DNA from: a virus
DNA length: 35,027 nt
Virus record (IMG/VR): IMGVR_UViG_3300006919_000185
Span: 1-35,027 of that record
Reading direction: 5' to 3' (one strand)
Shown here: piece by piece, positions 1 to 35,027 of the stretch
Numbering within the stretch: position 1 is the first letter of the stretch
How the letters are laid out: each line of letters begins with the position of its first letter
The notes under the pieces: generated by a model
Database searches by the model: none
Seen by the model: only the letters and a program-made list of their open reading frames with translations
What the model was told of the DNA's origin: nothing
Translations under genes and position numbers: made by a program

Positions 1-19
1 AAATGTCGGTCGTGACGCT

Positions 20-304
20 TTAACGTGACGGCGGTTTGGGCAGTTCCGGCTCCGGCTTGTCAGCACGGGCTGACAGGCGGCACCACTTCGTGCAGGGGTT
101 CTCGCGGCCGAGCCGGCATTCGTCGCCCGAACAGATGGGCGGCAGGTCCGGCTGGCCGATGAGGACTTCGGCCTGTGGCGCTGCGGGCGCTGGGCGTGAT
201 GGCTTGCTGCCCACCCAGCGTCCGAATGCCCCGGCCGTCCCTTCCGTCCGATACCGGGGCAACCGGTAGATCGGCAGACGAGAGTTCGGATCGGCGTCAG
301 GCAC
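20..304 (-). CDS. Small Cys-containing protein, unknown function
   Basis: 94 residues, read from a GTG whose first eight bases overlap the end of the preceding gene (GTGCCTGA); there is no internal Met to use instead. The N-terminal half is basic, the C-terminus proline-rich (PEPELPKPP). Four cysteines at about 58, 63, 71 and 75 (C-x4-C-x7-C-x3-C) could bind a metal. I do not recognise the family. It is the last gene visible in the unit driven from the promoter at 542-570. Confidence 0.65.
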   Translation of the reverse strand: MPDADPNSRLPIYRLPRYRTEGTAGAFGRWVGSKPSRPAPAAPQAEVLIGQPDLPPICSGDECRLGRENPCTKWCRLSARADKPEPELPKPPSR

Positions 305-512
305 TCCGAATTTCCACGACCTTGACCTTGTTGAGCAGGTCGATCGTCAGGTCGAGGGCTTCGATCTCGCGATCACGCTGCTCACACTCAGCATTGAGTG
401 CTTTGGTCAGGCGATCGCCGAAGTTCTTTCGCATGACTTCATTACGCTGCGAAAGGGCGATGTGCTGTTCACGCAAAAGGCGAACTGCAAGGTTACGCTG
501 GTTTTCAGTCAC
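297..512 (-). CDS. Short charged helical protein, unknown
   Basis: 71 residues from a GTG start preceded by CGGAG at 7 bases. Nearly the whole chain is rich in Arg, Glu, Asp and Leu with no Gly or Pro breaks after residue 35, consistent with a single long helix or short coiled coil. First gene after the promoter at 542-570 and coupled to the next gene by an 8-base overlap. No recognised domain. Confidence 0.7.
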   Translation of the reverse strand: MTENQRNLAVRLLREQHIALSQRNEVMRKNFGDRLTKALNAECEQRDREIEALDLTIDLLNKVKVVEIRSA

Positions 513-541
513 TACGACTCCGATTTCTTTGTTCAGTGATT

Positions 542-570
542 CTGGTAACTGTGTTAAGTCAGAATGTCAA
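542..570 (-). promoter_or_regulatory. Phage promoter, TTGACA-N16-TTACCA
   Basis: TTGACA (565-570) followed after 16 bases by TTACCA, with the same spacing as the other minus-strand promoters here. It lies between the stop of the 584-754 gene and the GTG start at 512. Confidence 0.6.
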
Positions 571-583
571 TGGCCGGATCGCC

Positions 584-754
584 TTATCGTGCGATCCTAT
601 ATTCCCAACGACCAGCGACGCGGCGTCGCTCGACGGTTTCGAGCCACATGATGGCGGTGATCTCCAGCGCTTCGTCGCGGATCAGACGCGGATACCAGAC
701 ATACCACGGAGTCCACGGGGCTTCGAATGCCCAAGGGCTTTTACGTTCGACCAA
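584..754 (-). CDS. Trp-rich 56-residue protein, unknown
   Basis: A gene of 56 codons starting at TTG, two bases after the stop of the 757-1281 gene and 10 bases downstream of AAGGAGG. The protein has six tryptophans (residues 8, 14, 17, 20, 37, 50) in patterns such as PWTPWYVWYP and a basic C-terminal half (VERRRVAGRWEYRIAR). Short W/R-rich proteins of this style are common in large phages of GC-rich hosts, but no function is known to me. Start and length rest on the ribosome binding site and close packing. Confidence 0.7.
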   Translation of the reverse strand: MVERKSPWAFEAPWTPWYVWYPRLIRDEALEITAIMWLETVERRRVAGRWEYRIAR

Positions 755-756
755 GC

Positions 757-1281
757 TCAGCGGGCCTCCTTCAACGATTCGATCCAGCGCATGTCGTAGT
801 CGATATGCCCCTTCGGGAGGTAGGGTTCGATCAACTTCGTCTGGTCGTAATTGAGGAAGGGCTGCTTGACCGCATAGTCAGGCATGTGCTCCGGCTTGGG
901 CTTGCCGAAATACGCCTCATACCCGTTCGAGGTGAGGATGCTGGTCTCCGTGATGGGGACGCCCATCTCGGTGATGAAGATCGCGAGGCCGGGTTCGTCG
1001 GTCGGTCCGGTCATCCAACTCCAGACCGGCTTGCCGGGCACGACTCGGAAGTGCGGCATGACCAGCTTGACGATCTGGTTGTCGATGACGTTGCTACCAC
1101 GGGTGTAGAGGACGCCTTCCTCGATCCGTTCGTTGATCCATGTCCCCACCAAGGCGGCGTGCGGGTTGTCGAGCGTGCCGGGTGCCCATTCGATGGCGGT
1201 GCTGCGGGCGAAGGCGACGGTAGGCAGCAAGGCCCCCACGGCGGCGACGCCGATGCTGGCGAGAATTTCGCGGCGGTTCAT
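757..1281 (-). CDS. Exported protein with Tat-like signal peptide, unknown
   Basis: 174 residues. Start chosen at the ATG with GGAGACCC six bases upstream, because from there the protein begins MNRREILASIG followed by a hydrophobic stretch and an AFA cleavage site near residue 25. The RR pair suggests twin-arginine export, though a Sec signal is possible. The mature part (for example ending in DMRWIESLKEAR) has no motif I recognise. Exported proteins are rare among phage early-type genes; it could act in the periplasm or envelope. Third gene of the unit from the promoter at 2252-2280. Confidence 0.8.
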   Translation of the reverse strand: MNRREILASIGVAAVGALLPTVAFARSTAIEWAPGTLDNPHAALVGTWINERIEEGVLYTRGSNVIDNQIVKLVMPHFRVVPGKPVWSWMTGPTDEPGLAIFITEMGVPITETSILTSNGYEAYFGKPKPEHMPDYAVKQPFLNYDQTKLIEPYLPKGHIDYDMRWIESLKEAR

Positions 1282-1292
1282 GATGGGTCTCC

Positions 1293-1862
1293 TTATCGGC
1301 GGAGGATGTTCACGAAGTTCGTGGCATCGGTGTGATGGATGCGGCCATCCGATTGGCGGCCGGTGGCGGGGATGTTGGCGTCCAGCCATGTGCGGATCAG
1401 GTCGTGATCGACGAAGGTGCTGGTGCCATAATAGAAGAGGAGCTTCTGTCCATCGACGACGGCGGTGGTCAGACTGACCCAGCACTCGCGTCCGTCATAG
1501 GTGCCGACGCAGGTCCGAAGCCCGACAGTGTTGGCTACCCACGAGTAACGGATGCGCTTACCGCTGTCGAAGAACTTGGTCGCTTCCTCAGCGAAGCGTT
1601 CCCACAATGCGTGGTAGGCGTAGTCGTCCGCATCCACCGCGCCGGTGACGCCCTCAAGGAACTCGACCATCTGTGAGTCGGTTTCCGCGCCAACCTGCCG
1701 TGGCGTGCGCCGGGCGACGATCTGATCGAGCGCCTTGACGATCGATTTGGTGTCGTCGAGGAGTTCGGTGAAATCCTGTTCGGTCGCGTCGCGGTTCTGG
1801 AGCCAATGGATGTCAGCCCAAGCTGCCTTGATGCGGGTCTGGAGTGCGAGAAGGTCTTTCAT
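1293..1862 (-). CDS. Conserved phage protein, unknown
   Basis: 189 residues, ATG start inside the preceding gene's stop (ATGA overlap). The N-terminal 60 residues are helical and charged. The C-terminal half is beta-rich, with the stretch LLFYYGTSTFVDHDLIRTWL and a final TDATNFVNIL segment. From memory this resembles a phage family ending in a DHxLIRxWL...DAxNFxN pattern; no activity is known to me. Confidence 0.82.
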   Translation of the reverse strand: MKDLLALQTRIKAAWADIHWLQNRDATEQDFTELLDDTKSIVKALDQIVARRTPRQVGAETDSQMVEFLEGVTGAVDADDYAYHALWERFAEEATKFFDSGKRIRYSWVANTVGLRTCVGTYDGRECWVSLTTAVVDGQKLLFYYGTSTFVDHDLIRTWLDANIPATGRQSDGRIHHTDATNFVNILRR

Positions 1863-2218
1863 GCGTGTGCGCCCTCCCCGGTCAGGCCGGCAGCGTCGGC
1901 AACAGCAAGGATCACGTCCGCGCGGTCCATGTAGAAATTCCAGTGCAGATATTCTTGCAGGCGCTTGCGAGGAGACATCGCCTTGATGTCTTCGACCGTA
2001 TGGTCGCGCTCCAGCAGTGCGTGGATCAGATCGTGGTGGTCGATGCCGGTCTCGATCATGGCTTCCCGCACCAGATAGCCGGCGGTGTTGTAATAGCGCA
2101 CGGTCGGCTTTTCCTTCATGGGCGGCAAGCCCTGACGGCCCCGGCGCGGCATCGGGCGAAGGATGGTGGCGTCGGACGCTGCGGCGCGGTCTACGGCAAC
2201 CTGAGATGAAGCAAGCAT
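1859..2218 (-). CDS. Small conserved protein, first gene of its unit
   Basis: 119 residues. The ATG at 2218 is preceded by the strong site GGAGACAGACACAGA, favouring it over Met 23 or Met 34. The first 30 residues are basic and low-complexity; the rest is a soluble alpha-type domain containing RYYNTAGYLVREAMIETG and SPRKRLQEYLHWNFY. I do not recognise the fold. It opens the unit that continues through the Tat-like exported protein. Confidence 0.82.
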   Translation of the reverse strand: MLASSQVAVDRAAASDATILRPMPRRGRQGLPPMKEKPTVRYYNTAGYLVREAMIETGIDHHDLIHALLERDHTVEDIKAMSPRKRLQEYLHWNFYMDRADVILAVADAAGLTGEGAHA

Positions 2219-2251
2219 TCTGTGTCTGTCTCCTTATTCTGTCTGTGACTT

Positions 2252-2280
2252 CATCTAGGATGATTCGACTGCCCGGTCAA
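2252..2280 (-). promoter_or_regulatory. Phage promoter, TTGACC-N16-CTAGAT
   Basis: TTGACC (2275-2280) and CTAGAT (2253-2258) in the 86-base gap before the 1859-2218 gene. The leader carries AATAAGGAGACAGACA before the ATG. Confidence 0.7.
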
Positions 2281-2304
2281 CCGATTCGTTCACCACTTAA
2301 TCTA

Positions 2305-2628
2305 CTAATCGTCTGCGTAGGCGATCCGGTAGTCGCGCGCCTCCGGCGGCGTGTCCCACATGTCCTCCGAATAGAGTTCATTGGCGTTGCCATGCTTCAC
2401 GACGATCTGGTCGTTGGCCTTGGCGATCCGCAGGCCCTCTTCCCGATCGACAAAGCGCCCGTGGGTGGTGAGGAACCCCTGCTTCGCTTCGCCGCCGGTC
2501 TTCTTCCCGTCCACGAACAGCCGCGTCCACATGACATGGTGGTGGCGGGCGGGCGCGGGCAGCGCAAGAGTCCCGATGTCGGGATACTTGATCGCGACGC
2601 AGGCGATTTCTTCGGGCATATCCTTCAT
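2305..2628 (-). CDS. Conserved phage protein with GRFVDRxE motif
   Basis: 107 residues from the ATG overlapping the upstream stop (ATGA); a longer in-frame reading into the neighbour is rejected. The segment GFLTTHGRFVDREEGLRIA followed by SEDMWD matches, from memory, a widespread small phage/prophage family with a GRFVDRxEAxxIA...LxSEDL core and unknown function. Histidines HHH near residue 30 are notable. Last gene of the unit starting at 4551-4579. Confidence 0.82.
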   Translation of the reverse strand: MKDMPEEIACVAIKYPDIGTLALPAPARHHHVMWTRLFVDGKKTGGEAKQGFLTTHGRFVDREEGLRIAKANDQIVVKHGNANELYSEDMWDTPPEARDYRIAYADD

Positions 2629-3017
2629 ACGTTCACGCCTTCCTCGATCTCGGACCGGCGCTCTTCGATCACCTTCTGCAAGGTGTTGAGGCGATAAGCC
2701 TCGCCGGCCGGGATGTCCCAGATGAACTCCTCCCATGCGATCTGGGCGTCGTTGCGTGCGGCCCGGTCAGGCTTGGCTACCGGTTTGGGTGCCGGAGGAG
2801 CGACAGGTGCGGGGGGAATGTCCTGTGGCTCCTCCAGCGATGCGTCAGGGACGGCACCTGAGTGCGCCTGTCGCATCAACTCGTTGAGGCGATTCATGAT
2901 CGCCTCCTTGGTCAGATCAACTTCGACCGTCTCGAACTTCGGATCGATCCGCTTGGCGTCCGCTTGGAGGTGGACGTATTGCGGGCCGTCGGTAGTCTGG
3001 CAGAGGTAGAATTTCAA
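2625..3017 (-). CDS. Two-domain protein with Pro/Ala linker, unknown
   Basis: 130 residues. An N-terminal module (MKFYLCQTTDGPQYVHL start) is joined by a proline/alanine linker (about residues 65-85, PPAPVAPPAPKPVAKP) to a helical C-terminal segment. The linker suggests two independently folding parts. Overlaps both neighbours by four bases. No family recognised. Confidence 0.8.
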   Translation of the reverse strand: MKFYLCQTTDGPQYVHLQADAKRIDPKFETVEVDLTKEAIMNRLNELMRQAHSGAVPDASLEEPQDIPPAPVAPPAPKPVAKPDRAARNDAQIAWEEFIWDIPAGEAYRLNTLQKVIEERRSEIEEGVNV

Positions 3018-3256
3018 GGTTCGTTGCCCTCGTTTTCCATGATCGCGATGAAGTCCTCGGCTTTCATACCGGAGGCGAGGCCGCCACCTCCGAGAACGGA
3101 GTCAATGATGCTGTCAGCGTCCAGATCGGAAGGGGTGGTTCCGAAGTGGGATAGGCAGAACGCATCCAGCGCGGAGACCGCCTTGAAGTGTTCGCTGGTT
3201 GCCTCGGCCGCCCGGTCAATCAGGCGTTGAAGGCGTTCCTTGTCCCGCTTATTCAT
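3014..3256 (-). CDS. Small helical protein, unknown
   Basis: 80 residues, starting MNKRDKERLQRLIDRA, with a basic helix first and an acidic C-terminus. A run of glycines (LGGGGLASG, about residue 55) divides two helical parts. ATGA overlaps join it to both flanking genes, so it is likely made in step with them. Confidence 0.8.
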   Translation of the reverse strand: MNKRDKERLQRLIDRAAEATSEHFKAVSALDAFCLSHFGTTPSDLDADSIIDSVLGGGGLASGMKAEDFIAIMENEGNEP

Positions 3257-3894
3257 GCTGCCTGCACGCCTTTCACGTTGAAAGCGATGCGGAAATCCTC
3301 AATCGGGATGATCCGCTGCTCGTCGCCGTCCTGCACGAGGACGCAGTTGGATTTCTCGTCCGCGTAGGGCACCGCCTCAGTGTAGGCCCGGCCCGGCTTG
3401 CGATACTCCTCCGGCGTGGAACGCGAGGTCAGGCCGTCATACCAGACCAGCGCCGTTACCGGCCGGCCCTGATAGGTGCCCTCATTCGTCAGCGCCTGAC
3501 TCGTATAGGCGACACCAGCGTCGTCACCGATCTCGGCGTCCGGCTTGATCAGGTCGAAAAGCTTCTCTTCCCGATAGCTCAGGATGGCTTCTCGGACCCG
3601 TCGGGCGTCCTCCGCCGAAATCCATTCTACGTTGGTGCTGGACTTGCGCGCCGTCTGCATGGAACAGCCGACCGGTTCGCCATCGAAATAGATGGCGTTG
3701 AGGCCGACGTGCGTGTCGGTGCAGAGCCAGTTGAAGATCGGGTAGGACTGGAGGCGCGTCTGGAGTTCTTCCGGCTCGTTCCAGTCATAGTCGATGCCCA
3801 GCGCCTCGCAGATTTCCTCCAGCGGCGCGGAGTGACGCCACCGATCCGGCTCGGCCGGGCGGGTGACATTGCGGATCGCGTCGATCAGTTTCAT
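3253..3894 (-). CDS. 213-residue soluble protein, unknown
   Basis: Start taken at the ATG overlapping the upstream stop (ATGA at 3891-3894); an in-frame extension of 67 residues reads through the neighbour and is Arg/Gly-rich noise. The protein starts MKLIDAIRNVTRP, contains a mixed alpha/beta middle and ends with PIEDFRIAFNVKGVQAA. No catalytic signature seen. It is the largest member of the six-gene unit. Confidence 0.82.
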   Translation of the reverse strand: MKLIDAIRNVTRPAEPDRWRHSAPLEEICEALGIDYDWNEPEELQTRLQSYPIFNWLCTDTHVGLNAIYFDGEPVGCSMQTARKSSTNVEWISAEDARRVREAILSYREEKLFDLIKPDAEIGDDAGVAYTSQALTNEGTYQGRPVTALVWYDGLTSRSTPEEYRKPGRAYTEAVPYADEKSNCVLVQDGDEQRIIPIEDFRIAFNVKGVQAA

Positions 3895-4154
3895 GCTTCG
3901 CCCTCCTCTTCGATGCGTTCGATGTTGCGCCGCTCGGCGTGATAAGTCGGCGGCGAGACCGCCTCGAAATAATAGTCCGGGTTGCGCCGGGCGACGGTCT
4001 CCGCCTTCTCGGCGGCCTCTTCCTCCGTCTCGGCCCGGACCTCGAAATCGACATAGTTGCAGTCGTCGTGGCTGCTGATCACCCGGACGTGCCACAGTTC
4101 GCCCTCACCAGCGGCAAGGAAGTCGTCGTCATCCTTATAGCTGAACTCGGTCAT
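3891..4154 (-). CDS. Acidic 87-residue protein, unknown
   Basis: Strongly acidic, beginning MTEFSYKDDDDFLAAGEGE, with an ELWHVRVISS beta segment and a Glu/Ala-rich helix (ETEEEAAEKAETVARR). The HVRV...EVRAETEEEAAEKA layout resembles small phage proteins in which a beta strand is followed by an EA-rich helix, as in the 34454-34657 gene. Function unknown. Confidence 0.8.
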   Translation of the reverse strand: MTEFSYKDDDDFLAAGEGELWHVRVISSHDDCNYVDFEVRAETEEEAAEKAETVARRNPDYYFEAVSPPTYHAERRNIERIEEEGEA

Positions 4155-29270: not shown

Positions 29271-29809
29271 TGGCCCAAACCTACCTGAACAAGAAGCAGG
29301 AGCTTTTCGCCAAGTTCCTCGCCGAAGGCTGCACGCAGCTAGATGCCTACACCAACGCTGGATACGAGCCATCAAGCTCGAACGCCAGCACCCTCGCCAG
29401 CCAGCCGCTCGTGAAACAACGGGTGGAAGAATTGCGTGCGGAGATCGAGCGCAAAAGCGTGGAGTTCGACATTCTCCGAAAGCAAGCCGCAGGCAGTCCC
29501 GAAAGCGCTGTCGAAGTGGCTGCTTGGACCTTCCAACGTGTCATGGACATGATGGCTTCCAATGTGAAGTTCGCTCAGGCGGCCGGCGAATACAAGGCCG
29601 CCAATGAATGCCTCAAGATGATGGGCGATGCCCTCAAAATGTTCGAGAAAGCACAAGCAGATGCAACTAGCGGAAAGCAAGCGGGACCGCAAAACACGCT
29701 TGCACTCATCGGTCAAGTCACTCAAGTCCTTGCAGACGCGAGTGGAGGAAGCAGTCCGCAAGCAGACAACCCTCTCGCCCCACGACTACCAAGCACTTCG
29801 GACGCTTAG
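29270..29809 (+). CDS. Terminase small subunit
   Basis: 179 residues, ATG sharing the resolvase stop (TAATG). LNKKQELFAKFLAEGCTQLD, then AYTNAGYEPSSSNASTLASQ, then LVKQRVEELRAEIERKS is the DNA-binding helix-turn-helix module of small terminase subunits (KQExFAxxYLx...TQAxxxAGY). A helical oligomerisation part follows (RVMDMMASNVKFAQAAGEYK). It recognises phage DNA and recruits the large subunit. The last 182 bases overlap the annotated start of the large subunit gene in another frame. Confidence 0.88.
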   Translation: MAQTYLNKKQELFAKFLAEGCTQLDAYTNAGYEPSSSNASTLASQPLVKQRVEELRAEIERKSVEFDILRKQAAGSPESAVEVAAWTFQRVMDMMASNVKFAQAAGEYKAANECLKMMGDALKMFEKAQADATSGKQAGPQNTLALIGQVTQVLADASGGSSPQADNPLAPRLPSTSDA

Positions 29810-31391
29810 TCAGTCCGACGATCTCGACACGCAGCTAACCACGCTCGATAAGACGATCGACTTCGCCGAGGCCGAACTGGACGAAGTCTGGATCGAACTG
29901 GCGCGCGAGAGCTACCACGATTTCTATGAGTTCATGCAGCGCGAGAATGGTTACACCATGTCGCCGCACCAGAAACTCATCGGAGACTTGCTCATGTCCT
30001 CCGCTTCCAAGGAGACCATGCGCTTCATGCTGTCCATGCCTCCGGGGCACTGTAAATCGACCCACTCGTCGCACCACTTCCCTGCGTGGTGGTTCGGCAA
30101 GTTCGGATCGAAGCAGAAGTTCCTGCAAGCCGGGCACAGTCAGGACTTCGTCGCCAAGGAAATCGGTGCAACCGTTCGCCAGATCATCGCGTCTGAGGAT
30201 TACCAGCGCGTCTTCCCCGACATCAAGATCAAGCACGACATGCGCGCCATGGACTATTGGGCACTGACCAATGGTAAGGGCAAATATGTCGGCAAGGGTG
30301 TCGGACAGGGTATCTCCGGCTTCCGTGGTCACTACGGTATGGTGGACGATCCCTACAAGAGCCGCAAGGACGCTGAAAGCCCGACGATCCGCGACACCGC
30401 GTTCAAATGGTATTCAGACGACTTCTCCACGCGCCTTCTGCCGGGTTCCCCGCTGGGCATTATTATGACCCGCTGGCACTCTGACGACCTCTGCGGACGC
30501 ATCTCAGATCGCGAAGAACGGGAAAAAAGAGAAGAGCAAGAAAAAATAGAAAAAGATTTTGCGGACCAACTCATTGATTCTCTTGAGGAAAAAGAGGGAA
30601 AACGCAAAAAATACCGCTTTGAAATTATTAATCTCCCCGCCATCGCCGAAGAAGACAACGATATTCTAGGCCGGGCGTCCGGCGAAGCATTGTGGCCAGA
30701 GGTTTACGACCTCGACGCATTGGAAAATCTCAGAAGCGATATGACTTCCGCGTCGTGGAACTCGCTGTATCAGGGCACGCCTATGGACGTGAGCGGCGGC
30801 GCGGTCGATGCTGAATGGTTCCAGCGCTACACCCATCCGCCGGCCAAGGCCGATCCTGAGAAGGGAACGCAGAACCAGATTCGTCGCACCGTGGTTTCGG
30901 TTGACGCCGCGAACACGGACAAGGAGCGAAGCGACTACACCGTCATCACGGTCTGGATCGAAGACCTCAAACGGAACCATTATCTGGTGGACGTGATCCG
31001 CAAGCGAATGGAACTGGTCGAACTGTCGTCCGAGATCGCCCGCGTGGTGAAGCGCTACGACGCCGACGCCCTGCTGGTCGAAGCCAAGGGCAACGGTCTG
31101 GCCTATTGCCAGTTGAAGGCGAATGGTGGTGCTCCTACCGCGCTGATCCCAATCGAGGTGGGCACCGCGAGCAAGTCGTTCCGTTTCGACGAAGTGACGC
31201 CGATGTTCGAGGCCGGGCAGGTCTACCTGCCGGAAAGCGCCAAGTGGCTTGCCGATTATGAGAAGGAACTCGTGGCCTTCCCTAACGGCAAGAATGACGA
31301 CCAAGTGGACGCCACCTCGCAATATCTGAAATGGGCCAAGCAGAAGGCCCGTCGCGGGACGAAGAAGATGACCGGCGCTGGCCACCGCTGA
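29628..31391 (+). CDS. Terminase large subunit (packaging ATPase-nuclease)
   Basis: 587 residues if read from ATG 29628; ATG 29661 (576 residues) is also possible, neither has a strong ribosome binding site. Walker A is MPPGHCKST (137-145), Walker B YGMVDDP (236-242), then IIMTRWHSDDLCGR (278-291). The RNase H-like nuclease has VVSVDAANTDKERSDYTVI (422-440; D426), LLVEAKGNG (482-490; E485) and NDDQVDATSQYL (556-567). The motor cuts and packs DNA into proheads. Residues about 295-337 (charged EEREKREEQEKIEK-type helix) are encoded by DNA much richer in A/T than the rest. Confidence 0.92.
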   Translation: MPSKCSRKHKQMQLAESKRDRKTRLHSSVKSLKSLQTRVEEAVRKQTTLSPHDYQALRTLSQSDDLDTQLTTLDKTIDFAEAELDEVWIELARESYHDFYEFMQRENGYTMSPHQKLIGDLLMSSASKETMRFMLSMPPGHCKSTHSSHHFPAWWFGKFGSKQKFLQAGHSQDFVAKEIGATVRQIIASEDYQRVFPDIKIKHDMRAMDYWALTNGKGKYVGKGVGQGISGFRGHYGMVDDPYKSRKDAESPTIRDTAFKWYSDDFSTRLLPGSPLGIIMTRWHSDDLCGRISDREEREKREEQEKIEKDFADQLIDSLEEKEGKRKKYRFEIINLPAIAEEDNDILGRASGEALWPEVYDLDALENLRSDMTSASWNSLYQGTPMDVSGGAVDAEWFQRYTHPPAKADPEKGTQNQIRRTVVSVDAANTDKERSDYTVITVWIEDLKRNHYLVDVIRKRMELVELSSEIARVVKRYDADALLVEAKGNGLAYCQLKANGGAPTALIPIEVGTASKSFRFDEVTPMFEAGQVYLPESAKWLADYEKELVAFPNGKNDDQVDATSQYLKWAKQKARRGTKKMTGAGHR

Positions 31392-31411
31392 GCCGGTCAT
31401 CCAATCAAAAA

Positions 31412-31464
31412 TTATGGATCGAGGCCATTTTGCCTTGCGGTTATTATGGATCGAGGTCATTTTG
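31412..31464 (+). repeat. Family-A repeat, two copies
   Basis: ATGGATCGAGGTCATTTTG-like copies at 31412-31433 and 31444-31464, same orientation as the six copies at 32480-32663. Confidence 0.9.
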
Positions 31465-31470
31465 ATGCTC

Positions 31471-31542
31471 CCGTTCGGGAACATTAGCGTAAAAACCGCC
31501 CGAATCTGACCGAAATGACCCCGTTCGGGAACATTCGGGCGG
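31471..31542. repeat. 15-bp direct repeat plus 10-bp inverted repeat
   Basis: CCGTTCGGGAACATT at 31471-31485 and 31521-31535, exactly 50 bp apart. CCGCCCGAAT (31496-31505) is inverted at 31533-31542. Possible protein-binding site beside the family-B array. Confidence 0.8.
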
Positions 31543-31544
31543 TC

Positions 31545-31664
31545 GTTAACCTTAACGAAATCGCTCCCGGCGTTAACCTTAACAGAAATGCCGGCCGCGT
31601 TAACCTTAACGAAACCTTCCAATCCGTTAACCTTAACAAATCCCCTCCCCGCGTTAACCTTAAC
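31545..31664. repeat. Family-B array: five GTTAACCTTAAC sites at 27-bp spacing
   Basis: Copies start at 31545, 31572, 31599, 31626 and 31653, each exactly 27 bp from the last. The 12-bp core is a dyad GTTAA-CC-TTAAC followed mostly by A-rich bases; the rest of each unit varies. Regular phasing near 2.5 helical turns is iteron-like. Confidence 0.93.
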
Positions 31665-31668
31665 AAAA

Positions 31669-32479
31669 GGCCCGCCATGCTCTCGTCCGCCAGCCTGCAT
31701 CCGCACCGTCCCGCCGATCAGGGGGACCCCGACGAACGACATCCGGCCGACGGTCCCCACGACACAGACTAGGGGACCCTCCCCCTCAGAGCAAGGGCCG
31801 GGGACCCCTTTTCTCCAGACCTCTGGGACCCTCCCCGTCAGGACATAGGCCGGGGTGTTGGATTTCGATTTTCCATCACTCCTTCCACCCATATCTCCAC
31901 CATTTCCGGGCAGCACGCCCCCCTCCCACCTCCATCACATCCTCCAGCCGCCTCCACAAATCGCCCTGAGAAGCCTCGGGAAGCGATCGACGACCCATGT
32001 CCGGCGTCCCGGATCGTCCCCTTGAGGCCGCGCCGCGCCGGTAATGTTGCACCGACTAAAGTCACACAATCTGTAGATTGGAATATTAGAAGGGAAAATG
32101 GCAGTTTTCTGCGGGTTTGAAGGGGCAAAGTCGAAAAAAGATTTTGTGATTTTACAGCCTAATGTTGTAAAAGATGGTTCGTCAAATCGGACCCCGGCCG
32201 GGTCGGCTCCACCACCAATGTCAAGTGAAACTGTCGGTGTAATGTCGAAAAACGGACATTTGGCGACATAAGGCCGGGAAATTGACCCCTCAGAGGGTAA
32301 AATGGCGGATTTGACCCGTTTTCTGGTGCTTCGACCGCCATTCTGGCTTTACAGTGCCCGTCTGGAGGCCCCTCAGAGCCGTTCTAAGCGCCGTGGAGCC
32401 TCAACAGGTCCTCCCGGTGCCTTCTGGGGCCTCCTGACGCCCTGTGGCGCTCCCTGAGCCTCCCACGGGCCTTCCCATG
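31669..32479. other. Middle non-coding segment between the two repeat clusters
   Basis: No supported gene; the open frames present are repeat shadows or lack codon bias. It has a GGGACCCTCCCC word at 31773-31784 and 31825-31836, each ending in GGCCGGGG; several CCTCAGAG words; and at 32096-32117 the word shared with 27045-27066. A minus-strand TTGACA near 32220 lacks a usable -10. Confidence 0.65.
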
Positions 32480-32663
32480 TCATGGATCGAGGTCATTTTG
32501 CTGGGTGATCGCCCGCGACCGCTCCGAAGTCATGGATCGAAGTCATTTTGCAAAATTATGGACCGAGGCCATTTTGCATCTGCTATTATGGATCGAGGTC
32601 ATTTTGCGATTCTATGGACCGAGGCCATTTTGCGCCGGGAGTTATGGACGAAGGTCATTTTGC
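32480..32663 (+). repeat. Family-A repeat, six copies
   Basis: Copies at 32480, 32530, 32556, 32586, 32612 and 32642 (about 22 bp each). Consensus TATGGAYCGAGGYCATTTTG; differences are mainly T/C. Start-to-start distances are 50, 26, 30, 26, 30. Confidence 0.93.
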
Positions 32664-32742
32664 ATCTGATTTTGAAAACCGCGCCCGCGATCGTCGCCGC
32701 GCGCCCAGCCGATGGTTAACGCGCGCGAAACCGCGCCGGCCG

Positions 32743-32907
32743 GGTAAGGTTAACGAAATCGACCGATCCGTTAAGGTTAACGACTTAGTTAGTGTTAACG
32801 GTTCGTTAAGGTTAACAAAATCCACCACTTCGTTAAGGTTAACGCCGGAGCCGTTAAGGTTAACGCGGCGTTAAGGTTAACGACTTCCTCCATCTGTTAA
32901 GGTTAAC
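32743..32907. repeat. Family-B array, opposite orientation, about eight copies
   Basis: GTTAAGGTTAAC at 32770, 32805, 32832, 32853, 32870 and 32896, with variants at 32743 (GGTAAGGTTAAC) and 32788 (GTTAGTGTTAAC). Half-sites GTTAAC lie at 32715 and 32923. Spacing is 27, 18, 17, 27, 21, 17 and 26. The central GG is the complement of the CC in the left array. Confidence 0.92.
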
Positions 32908-32951
32908 GCCCAGCCCCAGCCCGTTAACCATTTGCGCGGTGGAATTAGTGC

Positions 32952-32980
32952 TTGACCGAATCACTCTCCTCCCCTAGCAA
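32952..32980 (+). promoter_or_regulatory. Promoter, TTGACC-N16-CTAGCA
   Basis: TTGACC (32952-32957) and CTAGCA (32974-32979). Family-B half-site GTTAACC lies 29 bases upstream; AGGAGACAGACGCA precedes ATG 33015. Confidence 0.7.
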
Positions 32981-33014
32981 GATGGCGTGCAATGTCGCAC
33001 AGGAGACAGACGCA

Positions 33015-33416
33015 ATGCCCTTCCCTCTCTCGACCCAAGAGCAACTGGCCACATTCCGCGAAGACGCGGACTCTGGCGTCGCTATGGTTCATGTCGATAC
33101 CTGCATCGGCTGCTATTTGCAGGATCATCACAATCGCGATGGCGAATGCCTTTTCGGCGTCTATGTCGATGGCAATTCGACCGTTGACGACGTTCGGAAA
33201 GGACTCATCGACGAGGTGCGCCAGACGGGCGACCGCGTGCCGGACGAGGTGACAGACGAGGCAATCGCCGCCGCTATCGACGCGACATTCGATGGCGTCG
33301 ATCCTGCCCGGATTTTCGATGCTTCGCTGGAGGTGCCGGACGAGGATGCGGACGACGACGGCGCGGAAAGCTGCCAAGCGTGGTTCGTCCTTACATGGGA
33401 GATCGCCGATAATTGA
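33015..33416 (+). CDS. 133-residue acidic protein, unknown
   Basis: ATG behind AGGAGACAGACGCA; an in-frame longer reading starts in the promoter and is rejected. MPFPLSTQEQLATFREDADS, a CIGCYLQDHHNRDGECLFGV segment with three cysteines and two histidines (a possible metal site), and an acidic C-terminal half (VPDEDADDDGAESCQAW). Single-gene unit closed by a stem-loop. Unknown family. Confidence 0.8.
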   Translation: MPFPLSTQEQLATFREDADSGVAMVHVDTCIGCYLQDHHNRDGECLFGVYVDGNSTVDDVRKGLIDEVRQTGDRVPDEVTDEAIAAAIDATFDGVDPARIFDASLEVPDEDADDDGAESCQAWFVLTWEIADN

Positions 33417-33459
33417 AGCCATCACGCGCCTAATAGGCGGCATCATCCTTATCATCTTG

Positions 33460-33487
33460 GCGGCTGGACTCTCTTGAGTCCGGCCGC
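33460..33487 (+). terminator. Stem-loop terminator
   Basis: 12-bp stem with one G-U pair (33460-33471 with 33476-33487), loop TCTT, followed by TTTGGCTT. Short T-run, so moderately strong. Confidence 0.7.
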
Positions 33488-33512
33488 TTTGGCTTGCCGG
33501 TCCTAACCATTC

Positions 33513-33524
33513 GTTAAGGTTAAC
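33513..33524 (+). promoter_or_regulatory. Family-B site upstream of a promoter
   Basis: GTTAAGGTTAAC 43 bases before the -35 at 33568, with a second half-site GTTAAC at 33540. Same layout as at 32896 and 34360, so an operator role is plausible. Confidence 0.6.
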
Positions 33525-33567
33525 GCGGCGGTCCAGCCCGTTAACCATTGATCGGTGGAAAAAGTGC

Positions 33568-33596
33568 TTGACCGAATCGGTCCCCTCACCTAGAAA
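33568..33596 (+). promoter_or_regulatory. Promoter, TTGACC-N16-CTAGAA
   Basis: TTGACC (33568-33573), CTAGAA (33590-33595), preceded by GGAAAAAGTGC. Followed by ACGAATCA and GGGAGACACG. Confidence 0.78.
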
Positions 33597-33622
33597 CGAA
33601 TCATCAAATAGGGAGACACGAT

Positions 33623-33904
33623 TTGTCGGATCATTTTTTCGCACGCAGTCCCATGCCGGGCTTCATCGAAGTGGACATATGGGAAAAGCAAGCGCGCCGC
33701 GATGATTGCGGACCGGGCTTCGCCATGATCGCCGTCCCTCACGTCGCTGCGGTCCTGAACGTCTGGAACGACGCTGACCGCGAAATCTGGGACCATTGCA
33801 CGATTATTCTCGCGTCCGGCCTGCGGATCGAAACAACGGCGTGCTTTGAGCAAATCGAAGAGGCCATCATCAACGCCACGAAGCAAAAGGAGATCGCCGC
33901 ATGA
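33623..33904 (+). CDS. 93-residue protein, unknown
   Basis: TTG start behind GGGAGACACGAT, reading MSDHFFARSPMPGFIEVDIW. A compact mixed domain follows (AMIAVPHVAAVLNVWNDADR; HCTIILASGLRIETTACFEQ) with a helical end. No family recognised. ATGA overlap to the next gene. Confidence 0.77.
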   Translation: MSDHFFARSPMPGFIEVDIWEKQARRDDCGPGFAMIAVPHVAAVLNVWNDADREIWDHCTIILASGLRIETTACFEQIEEAIINATKQKEIAA

Positions 33905-34314
33905 AGAAAGGCCCGACCGTCTATGTCGCCGTCATCGAGCACGGCAACGGCAATAACGTCTATGTGGCGGAATCGCCGAAAGTGCTGGAAGAGGAAATTT
34001 ATGCGTTTGTCGCCGACTGGTGGGAAACCGAATATCCTGACAAGGCGATGCCGGAGGATAAGGCTGACGCCATTGCGGAATATTTCGAGGATCATCATTC
34101 GGAATATCTGACCCGGATCGGCGAAACCTACATTTCCGTCGCCGACGCCCCTCCCCGCCTGTCCGAACAAGCCCGGCTGGGCCTGATCGAAGAACTGAAC
34201 GAGAAAGGCGAGGCGGACGGCTGCGCCGACATGACAAGCATGATCCGCCGCGCCTTGCTGGTCGAGACCGAGGAGGAGGCGGAAGCCCTTCGGGAAGAAT
34301 ACGGCCTGAACTAA
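33901..34314 (+). CDS. 137-residue acidic protein, unknown
   Basis: ATG in the ATGA overlap. MKKGPTVYVAVIEHGNGNNV and YVAESPKVLEEEIYAFVADW resemble small phage proteins with a YVAxxEHxxGxxVYVxxSxxxA layout, the rest being acidic helices and ending LRREYG-type (ALREEYGLN). The opening VAVIEHGNGNNVYVAES is beta-rich. Function unknown; the unit ends at the following terminator. Confidence 0.8.
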   Translation: MKKGPTVYVAVIEHGNGNNVYVAESPKVLEEEIYAFVADWWETEYPDKAMPEDKADAIAEYFEDHHSEYLTRIGETYISVADAPPRLSEQARLGLIEELNEKGEADGCADMTSMIRRALLVETEEEAEALREEYGLN

Positions 34315-34341
34315 GGGAGGGAGGCGAAAGCCTCCCTTTCC
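34315..34341 (+). terminator. Stem-loop terminator
   Basis: GGGAGGC-GAAA-GCCTCCC (34319-34336) with a GNRA loop, followed by TTTCCTGTC; extra pairs with 34315-34318 are possible. Confidence 0.75.
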
Positions 34342-34359
34342 TGTCATCCGTTACCATCC

Positions 34360-34371
34360 GTTAAGGTTAAC
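34360..34371 (+). promoter_or_regulatory. Family-B site upstream of a promoter
   Basis: GTTAAGGTTAAC 29 bases before the -35 at 34401, again followed by CGCCCAGCCC as at 32896. Confidence 0.6.
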
Positions 34372-34400
34372 GCCCAGCCCGGATAATATGGAAAAAGTGC

Positions 34401-34429
34401 TTGACCGAATCGGCGGAGCATACTAGAAA
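34401..34429 (+). promoter_or_regulatory. Promoter, TTGACC-N16-CTAGAA
   Basis: TTGACC (34401-34406) and CTAGAA (34423-34428) with AAAAAGTGC upstream; followed by ACGAATCACC and AAGGAGACAGAC before ATG 34454. Confidence 0.8.
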
Positions 34430-34453
34430 CGAATCACCAACAAGGAGACAGAC

Positions 34454-34657
34454 ATGCCCAAGTTTTTCGTTGATTATACGGTGACGGAATTCACGCACCA
34501 GCGCGTCGTCGTGGAAGCGGAGACGGCGGAACAGGCCCTCGAACTCATGTATGAATATGAGGTGGACCTGTCCGAATCGTGGCAGATCGACTCGATGAAA
34601 TACGAGATCGATTATGTCGAGATCACCGGCACGGTGGCGGAGGACGCGAAGGCATGA
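34454..34657 (+). CDS. 67-residue acidic protein, unknown
   Basis: ATG behind AAGGAGACAGAC. MPKFFVDYTVTEFTHQRVVV, then EAETAEQALELMYEYEVDL: a beta-strand pair followed by an EA-rich helix, the common small phage strand-strand-helix fold with EAxTxEEAxEL. It resembles the layout of the 3891-4154 product. ATGA overlap with the next gene. Confidence 0.8.
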   Translation: MPKFFVDYTVTEFTHQRVVVEAETAEQALELMYEYEVDLSESWQIDSMKYEIDYVEITGTVAEDAKA

Positions 34658-34860
34658 CGACGCCCGCGATGCCGGACGCGATCCGCGCAACCATCATTAA
34701 CGCCCTGCACTGCCACGGCGATGCCGTCTTTCAGGGGTCGCAATATGGCGACTATTCCGAGGAGGAGTTGCACGACTCCAATATGGAAATCGCCGCCGCA
34801 CTAGAATGGCTGGGCGAAGCGGAGTCCGCCGCATCCTTTCGGACGGCTGGCGGTGAGTAA
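34654..34860 (+). CDS. 68-residue protein, unknown
   Basis: MTTPAMPDAIRATIINALHC start in ATGA, then an acidic part (YGDYSEEELHDSNMEIAAAL). Mostly helical. Function unknown. Confidence 0.77.
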   Translation: MTTPAMPDAIRATIINALHCHGDAVFQGSQYGDYSEEELHDSNMEIAAALEWLGEAESAASFRTAGGE

Positions 34861-35027
34861 GCGCCACCGCGTCGCCGTCGTCCATTGCCCGGACGGTTTC
34901 CTGCGTCAGCGCGTCCTATCGCGCTGGGCAACCATAGCGGAGGCGGAGGCGGAAATCGCCCGCATAGAGCGCGAGGAAGACCCGCAAGGCGTCCCAAGGG
35001 GCGACTATGGGATTGATCCGCCGGAGG
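34853..35027 (+). CDS. Small basic protein, partial at the window edge
   Basis: GTG start overlapping the previous stop by eight bases; open to the end (58 codons seen). SKRHRVAVVHCPDGFLRQRV, then a helix (SRWATIAEAEAEIARIEREE) and RGDYGIDPPE. Incomplete, so neither length nor family can be given. Confidence 0.7.
   Translation, partial: MSKRHRVAVVHCPDGFLRQRVLSRWATIAEAEAEIARIEREEDPQGVPRGDYGIDPPE

Follow-up and report, generated by a model that had tools for sequence, protein, structure and literature searches.

Described systems and genomic setting

Control of phage genes by CtrA ("lytic deferment") was proposed from TTAA-N7-TTAA sites. Another arrangement is known from the L5-type stoperators of mycobacteriophages, where many copies of a short directional site are dispersed in early intergenic regions. 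CtrA binds the DNA of phiCbK and other phages, and its sites are concentrated in the direct terminal repeats (DTRs) of phiCbK-like phages and Lacusarx (PMC9437464). The DTR of phiCbK starts inside terL (PMC3556154), and in Lacusarx a block of ~10.5 kb with double coverage, placed directly after terL, was read as the terminal repeat (PMC5648845). The described CtrA half-site is TTAACCAT (PMC3692519; PMC6180460). Also, a 12-bp direct repeat with GTTAACCAT occurs in a ~1-kb gap between divergent genes in the Sphingomonas phage vB_StuS_MMDA13 (cited in PMC9437464).

The window analyzed here, an IMG/VR contig of 35,027 bases, sits inside a contig of 151,382 bases (G291, or L010), being 100% identical to it over the compared stretch. 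Judged by its sequence, the window is a contig of a large phiCbK/Lacusarx-like siphophage of alphaproteobacteria: as in the TTAA-rich-repeat phages of this group, an early-gene block whose intergenic regions carry TTAA sites comes after a homologous TerL. The TerL of the window is 75.6% identical to that of XM05 (Erythrobacter phage), 72% to Lacusarx (Sphingobium phage) and 66% to L02 (Erythrobacter phage), with lower values for the more distant RXM (Citromicrobium phage, 53%) and phiCbK (38%). Moreover, every array-bearing contig in which terL was found (14/19 contigs) has a homologous TerL. Phages that infect Caulobacter, Sphingobium, Erythrobacter and Citromicrobium carry the identical core.

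Every one of the 27 cores of G291 falls within bases 1-3953 and 141,989-150,712, the other ~138 kb having none, and a scan of this contig with the backward control pattern gave 0 matches. The two core-bearing ends would form one block of ~13 kb if the contig closes on itself. Because the cores are confined to this terL-adjacent block and the relatives have repeats there, the array probably sits at the terL end of a terminal-repeat, early-gene block. From its position and the homology to relatives, this block would also be physically a repeat in the window phage.

Two core arrays and the gap between them

terL and the block that starts directly 3' of it have the following features:

29628-31391, plus strand: terL, large terminase (Pfam Terminase_6C, 8.8e-17)
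31413-31464, plus strand: two copies of the family-A repeat TATGGAYCGAGGYCATTTTG, before the left array
31545-31664, minus strand: left array, the core (read on this strand as GTTAAGGTTAAC) five times in exact 27-bp steps, from the motif scan and relatives
31665-32480, no strand: gap between the arrays, with no convincing gene
32481-32662, plus strand: six copies of the family-A repeat, before the right array, kept in L014, L019 and L024
32712-32720, plus strand: half-site ATGGTTAAC
32743-32907, plus strand: right array, with GTTAAGGTTAAC exact at 32770, 32805, 32832, 32853, 32870 and 32896 and one-mismatch copies at 32743 and 32788

As the original prediction stated, the left array consists of five GTTAACCTTAAC cores with zero mismatches, at 31545, 31572, 31599, 31626 and 31653, the four steps being exactly 27 bp each. 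Such a series is expected by chance about 0 times in 35 kb. When up to one mismatch is allowed, GTTAANNTTAAC has 15 matches in the window vs 0.12 in shuffles, all of them to the right of 31.5 kb, so that the first 31 kb has none. The 27-bp steps predicted among the irregular ones of the opposite array (32743-32770 and 32805-32832) were found as well, together with two that had been missed, from the core at 32896 to GTTAACCAT at 32923 and from the core at 33513 to GTTAACCAT at 33540. Also, the 17-bp step between 32853 and 32870 contains a TTAA-N7-TTAA. The distance between the arrays is ~1.0-1.3 kb in most relatives, and a search of positions 31300-35027 against Rfam matched no RNA element.

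The presence of two arrays around a conserved ~1.1-kb gap right after terL in nearly all relatives would fit terminase (TerS) recognition sites flanking the terminal-repeat cleavage and packaging start. The end of the DTR near terL in phiCbK points in the same direction, as does the contig end shared by L011 and L012, contigs from different samples that both stop exactly at base 31892. However, other contigs span this base and collapsed terminal repeats alone make no contig ends; a physical DNA end at 31892 was not retained, and the coincidence is kept as an observation only. Moreover, single copies of this element precede most early promoters over 13-21 kb, and packaging needs no such sites, which makes the TerS reading improbable. 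The gap also contains two 31-bp repeats, GGGACCCTCCCC..AGGGCCGGGG, at 31773-31803 and 31825-31855, which are 77-81% conserved in distant relatives. These repeats might mark a terminal-repeat cleavage region.

On the other hand, the occurrence of two repeat families together with an AT-richer stretch in the gap could be expected of the iterons of a replication origin. In this case, the core element would be confined to the origin, but it is dispersed at promoters over the same 13-21 kb. Also, the cumulative GC skew of XM05 turns near 102 kb and 34 kb, which are strand switches, and not specifically at the arrays (96-98 kb). An origin is thus still less probable than a packaging site. In the family-A repeat itself, both variable Y positions covary, and the repeats are conserved in several relatives.

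Conservation in relatives

The array of five cores at 27-bp steps is identical in L010 and is also present in L013, which is 93% identical overall. A comparison of the window with L013 reveals 0 substitutions at 144 comparable core bases (60 in the left array and 84 in the right), 3/60 in the left fillers and 76/1078 (7%) in the inter-array gap, which has many indels as well. The left array is free of indels, and the right array of L013 is short of exactly one 21-bp unit. In L011 and L012, copy 4 carries two different single mutations with the register retained.

Regarding the spacing in other relatives, part of what had been predicted stood, since the 27-bp step recurs. However, the left arrays of XM05, L014, L019 and L024 are of mixed orientation, with steps of 27, 30 and 41-43 bp instead of five cores at 27 bp. 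Even so, they are made mainly of N15 and N4 units, and the spacing in relatives is therefore not random. The same comparison bears on the possibility that the period is coding periodicity, that is, nine codons (27 = 9 x 3) giving VNLN repeats in an 85-residue open frame at 31515-31772. The steps of 17, 32 and 43 bp in relatives break the frame, which refutes this idea, and neither the second array nor the promoter sites are coding; its probability is negligible.

A directional unit and its spacing

The cores had been described as dyads, but they are not true ones, since the center is nearly fixed: 1003/1049 of the GTTAANNTTAAC sites have CC/GG there (phage loci, with overlapping loci counted). 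The site is thus directional. Its flanks are also constrained, with Y before the core in 97% and R after it in 90% of 463 non-redundant copies. The core is equally readable as a direct repeat, GTTAAG-GTTAAC, or as an extended half-site, GTTAACC-T-TAAC. GTTAACCWT is common to the core and a second element, GTTAACCAT.

Spacing was scanned in all IMG/VR contigs, the spacer being left free up to 31-33 bases, and the results were deduplicated. Pairs of a core and GTTAACCAT are separated by N15 in 62/90 cases and by N16 in 14 more; N15 is also found in 25/84 core pairs of the same direction and in 3/15 facing core pairs. For inverted GTTAACCAT pairs, N15 occurs in 14/17 at core-bearing loci vs 3/28, with a spread distribution, at core-less loci. 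If only the arms are counted (TTAAC-Nk-GTTAA), the maximum lies at k=15 (222), and there are smaller primary peaks at k=5 (75) and k=7 (52). The peaks at k=21, 11 and 13 would be the same pairs offset by the 6 bp between the two arms of one core. In terms of the helix, k=15 corresponds to 21 bp from arm to arm, or two turns, and k=5 to the CtrA spacing TTAA-N7-TTAA, or one turn.

The conserved quantity, in IMG/VR contigs as well as in named phages, is then the 15-bp spacer between facing arms, GTTAAC-N15-GTTAA, with 21 bp from start to start, 2.0 turns, on the same face. This spacer is common to the nominal 27-bp steps (core to core and core to GTTAACCAT) and to the 24-bp steps (GTTAACCAT pairs), where 27 = 21 + 6. 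The 27-bp period had been interpreted as about 2.5 turns, with successive sites on alternating faces of the helix. This has to be revised: facing arms share one face through N15 and only the dyad centers rotate, by ~206° per step, and a pure helical phasing of these centers was rejected because the N15 arm spacing fits better. Nonetheless, the proposed selection on spacing is credible because the spacing is kept while the filler varies, and it recurs well beyond the left array. As N5 and N7 also recur, 27 bp is not the sole step allowed.

Promoter context

In XM05, 37/39 cores fall inside one block of 21 kb. Although 38% of this block is intergenic, all 37/37 of its cores (P 3e-16) and 33/33 of its GTTAACCAT elements (P 1.5e-14) are intergenic, and a core is present in 27/34 intergenic gaps. 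In Lacusarx, 8/8 cores are intergenic. The elements precede a conserved sequence for which 144 non-redundant copies give the consensus TGGAAAAAGTGC-TTGACC-GAATC-GGTGGA-N4-CCTAGAAAC-GAATC-A. From their conservation and position before genes, we infer that these sequences are promoters. A generic sigma-70 scan gave 0 matches (1.9 expected), so the promoter call draws on conservation and not on the E. coli consensus.

Among the 144 promoters, the usual distance upstream of TTGACC is 41 or 53-56 bp for the start of the core and 26-29 bp for that of GTTAACCAT; 25/144 have neither element within 70 bp. The modules of the window at 32896/32923, 33513/33540 and 34360 match this general plan:

32923-32931, plus strand: GTTAACCAT, 27 bp after the core at 32896 and 29 bp upstream of the -35-like TTGACC at 32952
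32952-32962, plus strand: TTGACCGAATC of the putative first early promoter, with GANTC in the spacer, from the 144-promoter consensus
33513-33548, plus strand: core GTTAAGGTTAAC (33513), N15 and GTTAACCAT (33540), 56 and 29 bp upstream of TTGACC at 33569
34360-34371, plus strand: single core, 41 bp upstream of TTGACC at 34401

In these promoters, including those with TTGACC boxes at 32952, 33569 and 34401 in the window, GANTC, the CcrM methylation site, was also observed: it lies between -35 and -10 in 142/144, and a second one follows just after the -10-like box in 117. This placement suggests that early transcription may be sensitive to methylation or to GcrA. A GcrA homologue was found in phiCbK only, among 10 phages checked.

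Proposed operator system and candidate binders

The sequence, the location, the spacing rule and the selective constraint of these elements are directly observed. With a probability of roughly 60%, we consider that the array belongs to a system of multi-copy operators in the DTR early-gene region of a phiCbK/Lacusarx-like siphophage, where a short DNA word probably serves as docking code for a host cell-cycle regulator, or a similar protein, that controls the first viral genes. The operator unit would be GTTAACC-W-T, appearing as GTTAACCAT or inside the core GTTAACCTTAAC. Two units would face each other across a 15-bp spacer. Their arms would then lie on a single face of the DNA, separated by two helical turns, and two subunits could bind cooperatively. 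At most early genes, a single module would stand upstream of the conserved promoter, with GTTAACCAT ~26-29 bp and the core ~53-56 bp from TTGACC, whereas at the terL-proximal end the unit would be stacked into two arrays around the ~1.1-kb gap. For the first early promoter, these stacked arrays could be control or nucleation sites of high occupancy, and they could perhaps titrate the regulator as well. The DTR would be the first DNA to enter, and a regulator on two facing TTAACC arms would set early transcription. Binding, cooperativity and regulation are what this sequence organization would predict.

The leading candidate for the binder, with somewhat less than an even chance, is the CtrA of the host or another host regulator that recognizes this half-site. 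The half-site TTAACCAT occurs 3 times in the window and 33 times in the XM05 block, all of the latter intergenic, and it lies 26-29 bp from -35 in 48 promoter placements. Moreover, in the relative L254, full TTAA-N7-TTAA sites that end in TTAACCATA lie in the intergenic regions alongside core-like elements. This counts for CtrA, but can equally be compatible with a second protein reading the core. It was also observed that at 1152-10945 of L254 intergenic full CtrA sites (TATGGTTAACAAAGGGTTAACG) are paired with the palindrome GTTAACSTTAATTATTAASGTTAACG.

However, the canonical TTAA-N7-TTAA is scarce: among the 32 TTAA of the window block, N7 is found 2 times vs 13 for N2, 10 for N17 and 14 for N23, and the Lacusarx block has 0 N7 pairs. 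Also, the sites stand upstream of the -35 box and not over it, and typical CtrA-activated promoters differ in site placement from such upstream-only sites (PMC6180460). In a sample reached via a Rhodobacterales genome, and not chosen for sphingomonad hosts, the N15 operator form occurs in 1/289 genomes. The core stays near the control level among 115 genomes from the class and 61 from the family, also in Rhodobacterales-derived sampling. The enrichment of the core in two Rhodobacterales genomes was discounted as a sign of a host motif, because both had been chosen for carrying the core. As a separate observation, the Rhodobacterales genomes L124, L115 and L127 have the 12-mer 10-12 times each, partly in tandem at 20-21-bp steps, in stretches that look non-coding; such an occurrence is unusual for their family.

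Since TerL is homologous in all the terL-bearing array contigs, a lineage-specific phage protein would also fit. In this line, the cores could be operators of a CI-like XRE repressor of the phage, with dispersed silencing similar to that of mycobacteriophage stoperators that would permit a carrier or pseudolysogenic state. An HTH_3 protein is present in 9/10 motif-bearing phages, including the 151-kb contig of the window (277-aa frame), and the aligned XRE orthologues of the Lacusarx group are 38-60% identical to the latter. The core arrays are lineage-specific, and the single operator per early promoter would suit global repression. Nonetheless, the XRE recognition region diverges (DKVRGTIVAYERN in XM05, GSTRQSIRNYESG in L02 and VARAAYSQYETG in CcrSC) while the core is unchanged, and the asymmetric GG center (1003/1049 GG/CC) is odd for the two-fold symmetric site of a CI dimer. 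Also, the S24 domain was not detected in the XRE protein by Pfam, and the XRE gene of XM05 (33.5 kb) has no core nearby, thus giving no sign of autoregulation. Together these observations make an XRE repressor unlikely, although clearly ahead of the packaging and origin readings. A CI-like XRE protein of ~240-280 aa is seen in nearly all phages of the group (~100581-100745 in G291 and 33549-34304 in XM05), the XM05 gene being at a strand switch near the GC-skew minimum.

The regulators MucR, GcrA and OmpR-type were rejected as general binders because each was found in 1/10 phages only. If the binder of the proposed operator system is not CtrA or a regulator with its half-site, it may be the phage XRE protein and, after it, a host factor other than a CtrA-like one. 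A more speculative extension, which we regard as doubtful, is a two-input early switch in which TTAACC/N15 operators and GANTC promoters would read CtrA (or a new regulator) and CcrM-type methylation at once, at dozens of promoters. If true, the incoming phage would sense the cell-cycle state of its host at all of these promoters.

Comparison with known systems

The locus shares with mycobacteriophage L5-type stoperators the many scattered copies of one short directional site in early intergenic DNA. However, sequence and lineage are unrelated, and the sites described here are spaced pairs upstream of putative promoters. In MMDA13, compared by its description only, GTTAACCAT direct repeats also lie in a ~1-kb gap, but this phage reportedly belongs to a lineage that evolved independently, and no core has been described there. 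Lacusarx (PMC5648845) has a TerL 72% identical, an early block after terL, and 8 cores and 7 GTTAACCAT, all intergenic; unlike the window, it has fewer cores and no array of five at 27 bp.

There is also a likeness with the CtrA sites that Mascolo et al. (2022, PMC9437464) described in phiCbK-like and other alphaproteobacterial phages, in the DTR and in gap regions. Those sites are TTAA-rich and intergenic too, and are concentrated in the terminal repeat beside terL. The half-site TTAACCAT is common to both, and the phages belong to the same superfamily, Lacusarx being named in that work. In contrast to those TTAA-N7-TTAA sites, TTAA-N2-TTAA cores and TTAAC-N15-GTTAA pairs dominate here, and the modules, which are candidate CtrA sites on sequence grounds, are tied to a strongly conserved GANTC promoter. 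The core 12-mer was not found printed in the literature searched, and the core/N15 geometry is apparently undescribed, though foreshadowed in kind by the CtrA-rich terminal repeats of phages. For a phage group that is widespread but has been little studied, these elements amount to a ready set of operator and promoter parts. Moreover, in the terminal repeats of the sphingomonad-phage branch, the elements that dominate keep to another geometry, which is very strict and holds at most early promoters. This opens a direct test of whether a two-turn spacing is accepted by CtrA or these sites are read by another regulator.
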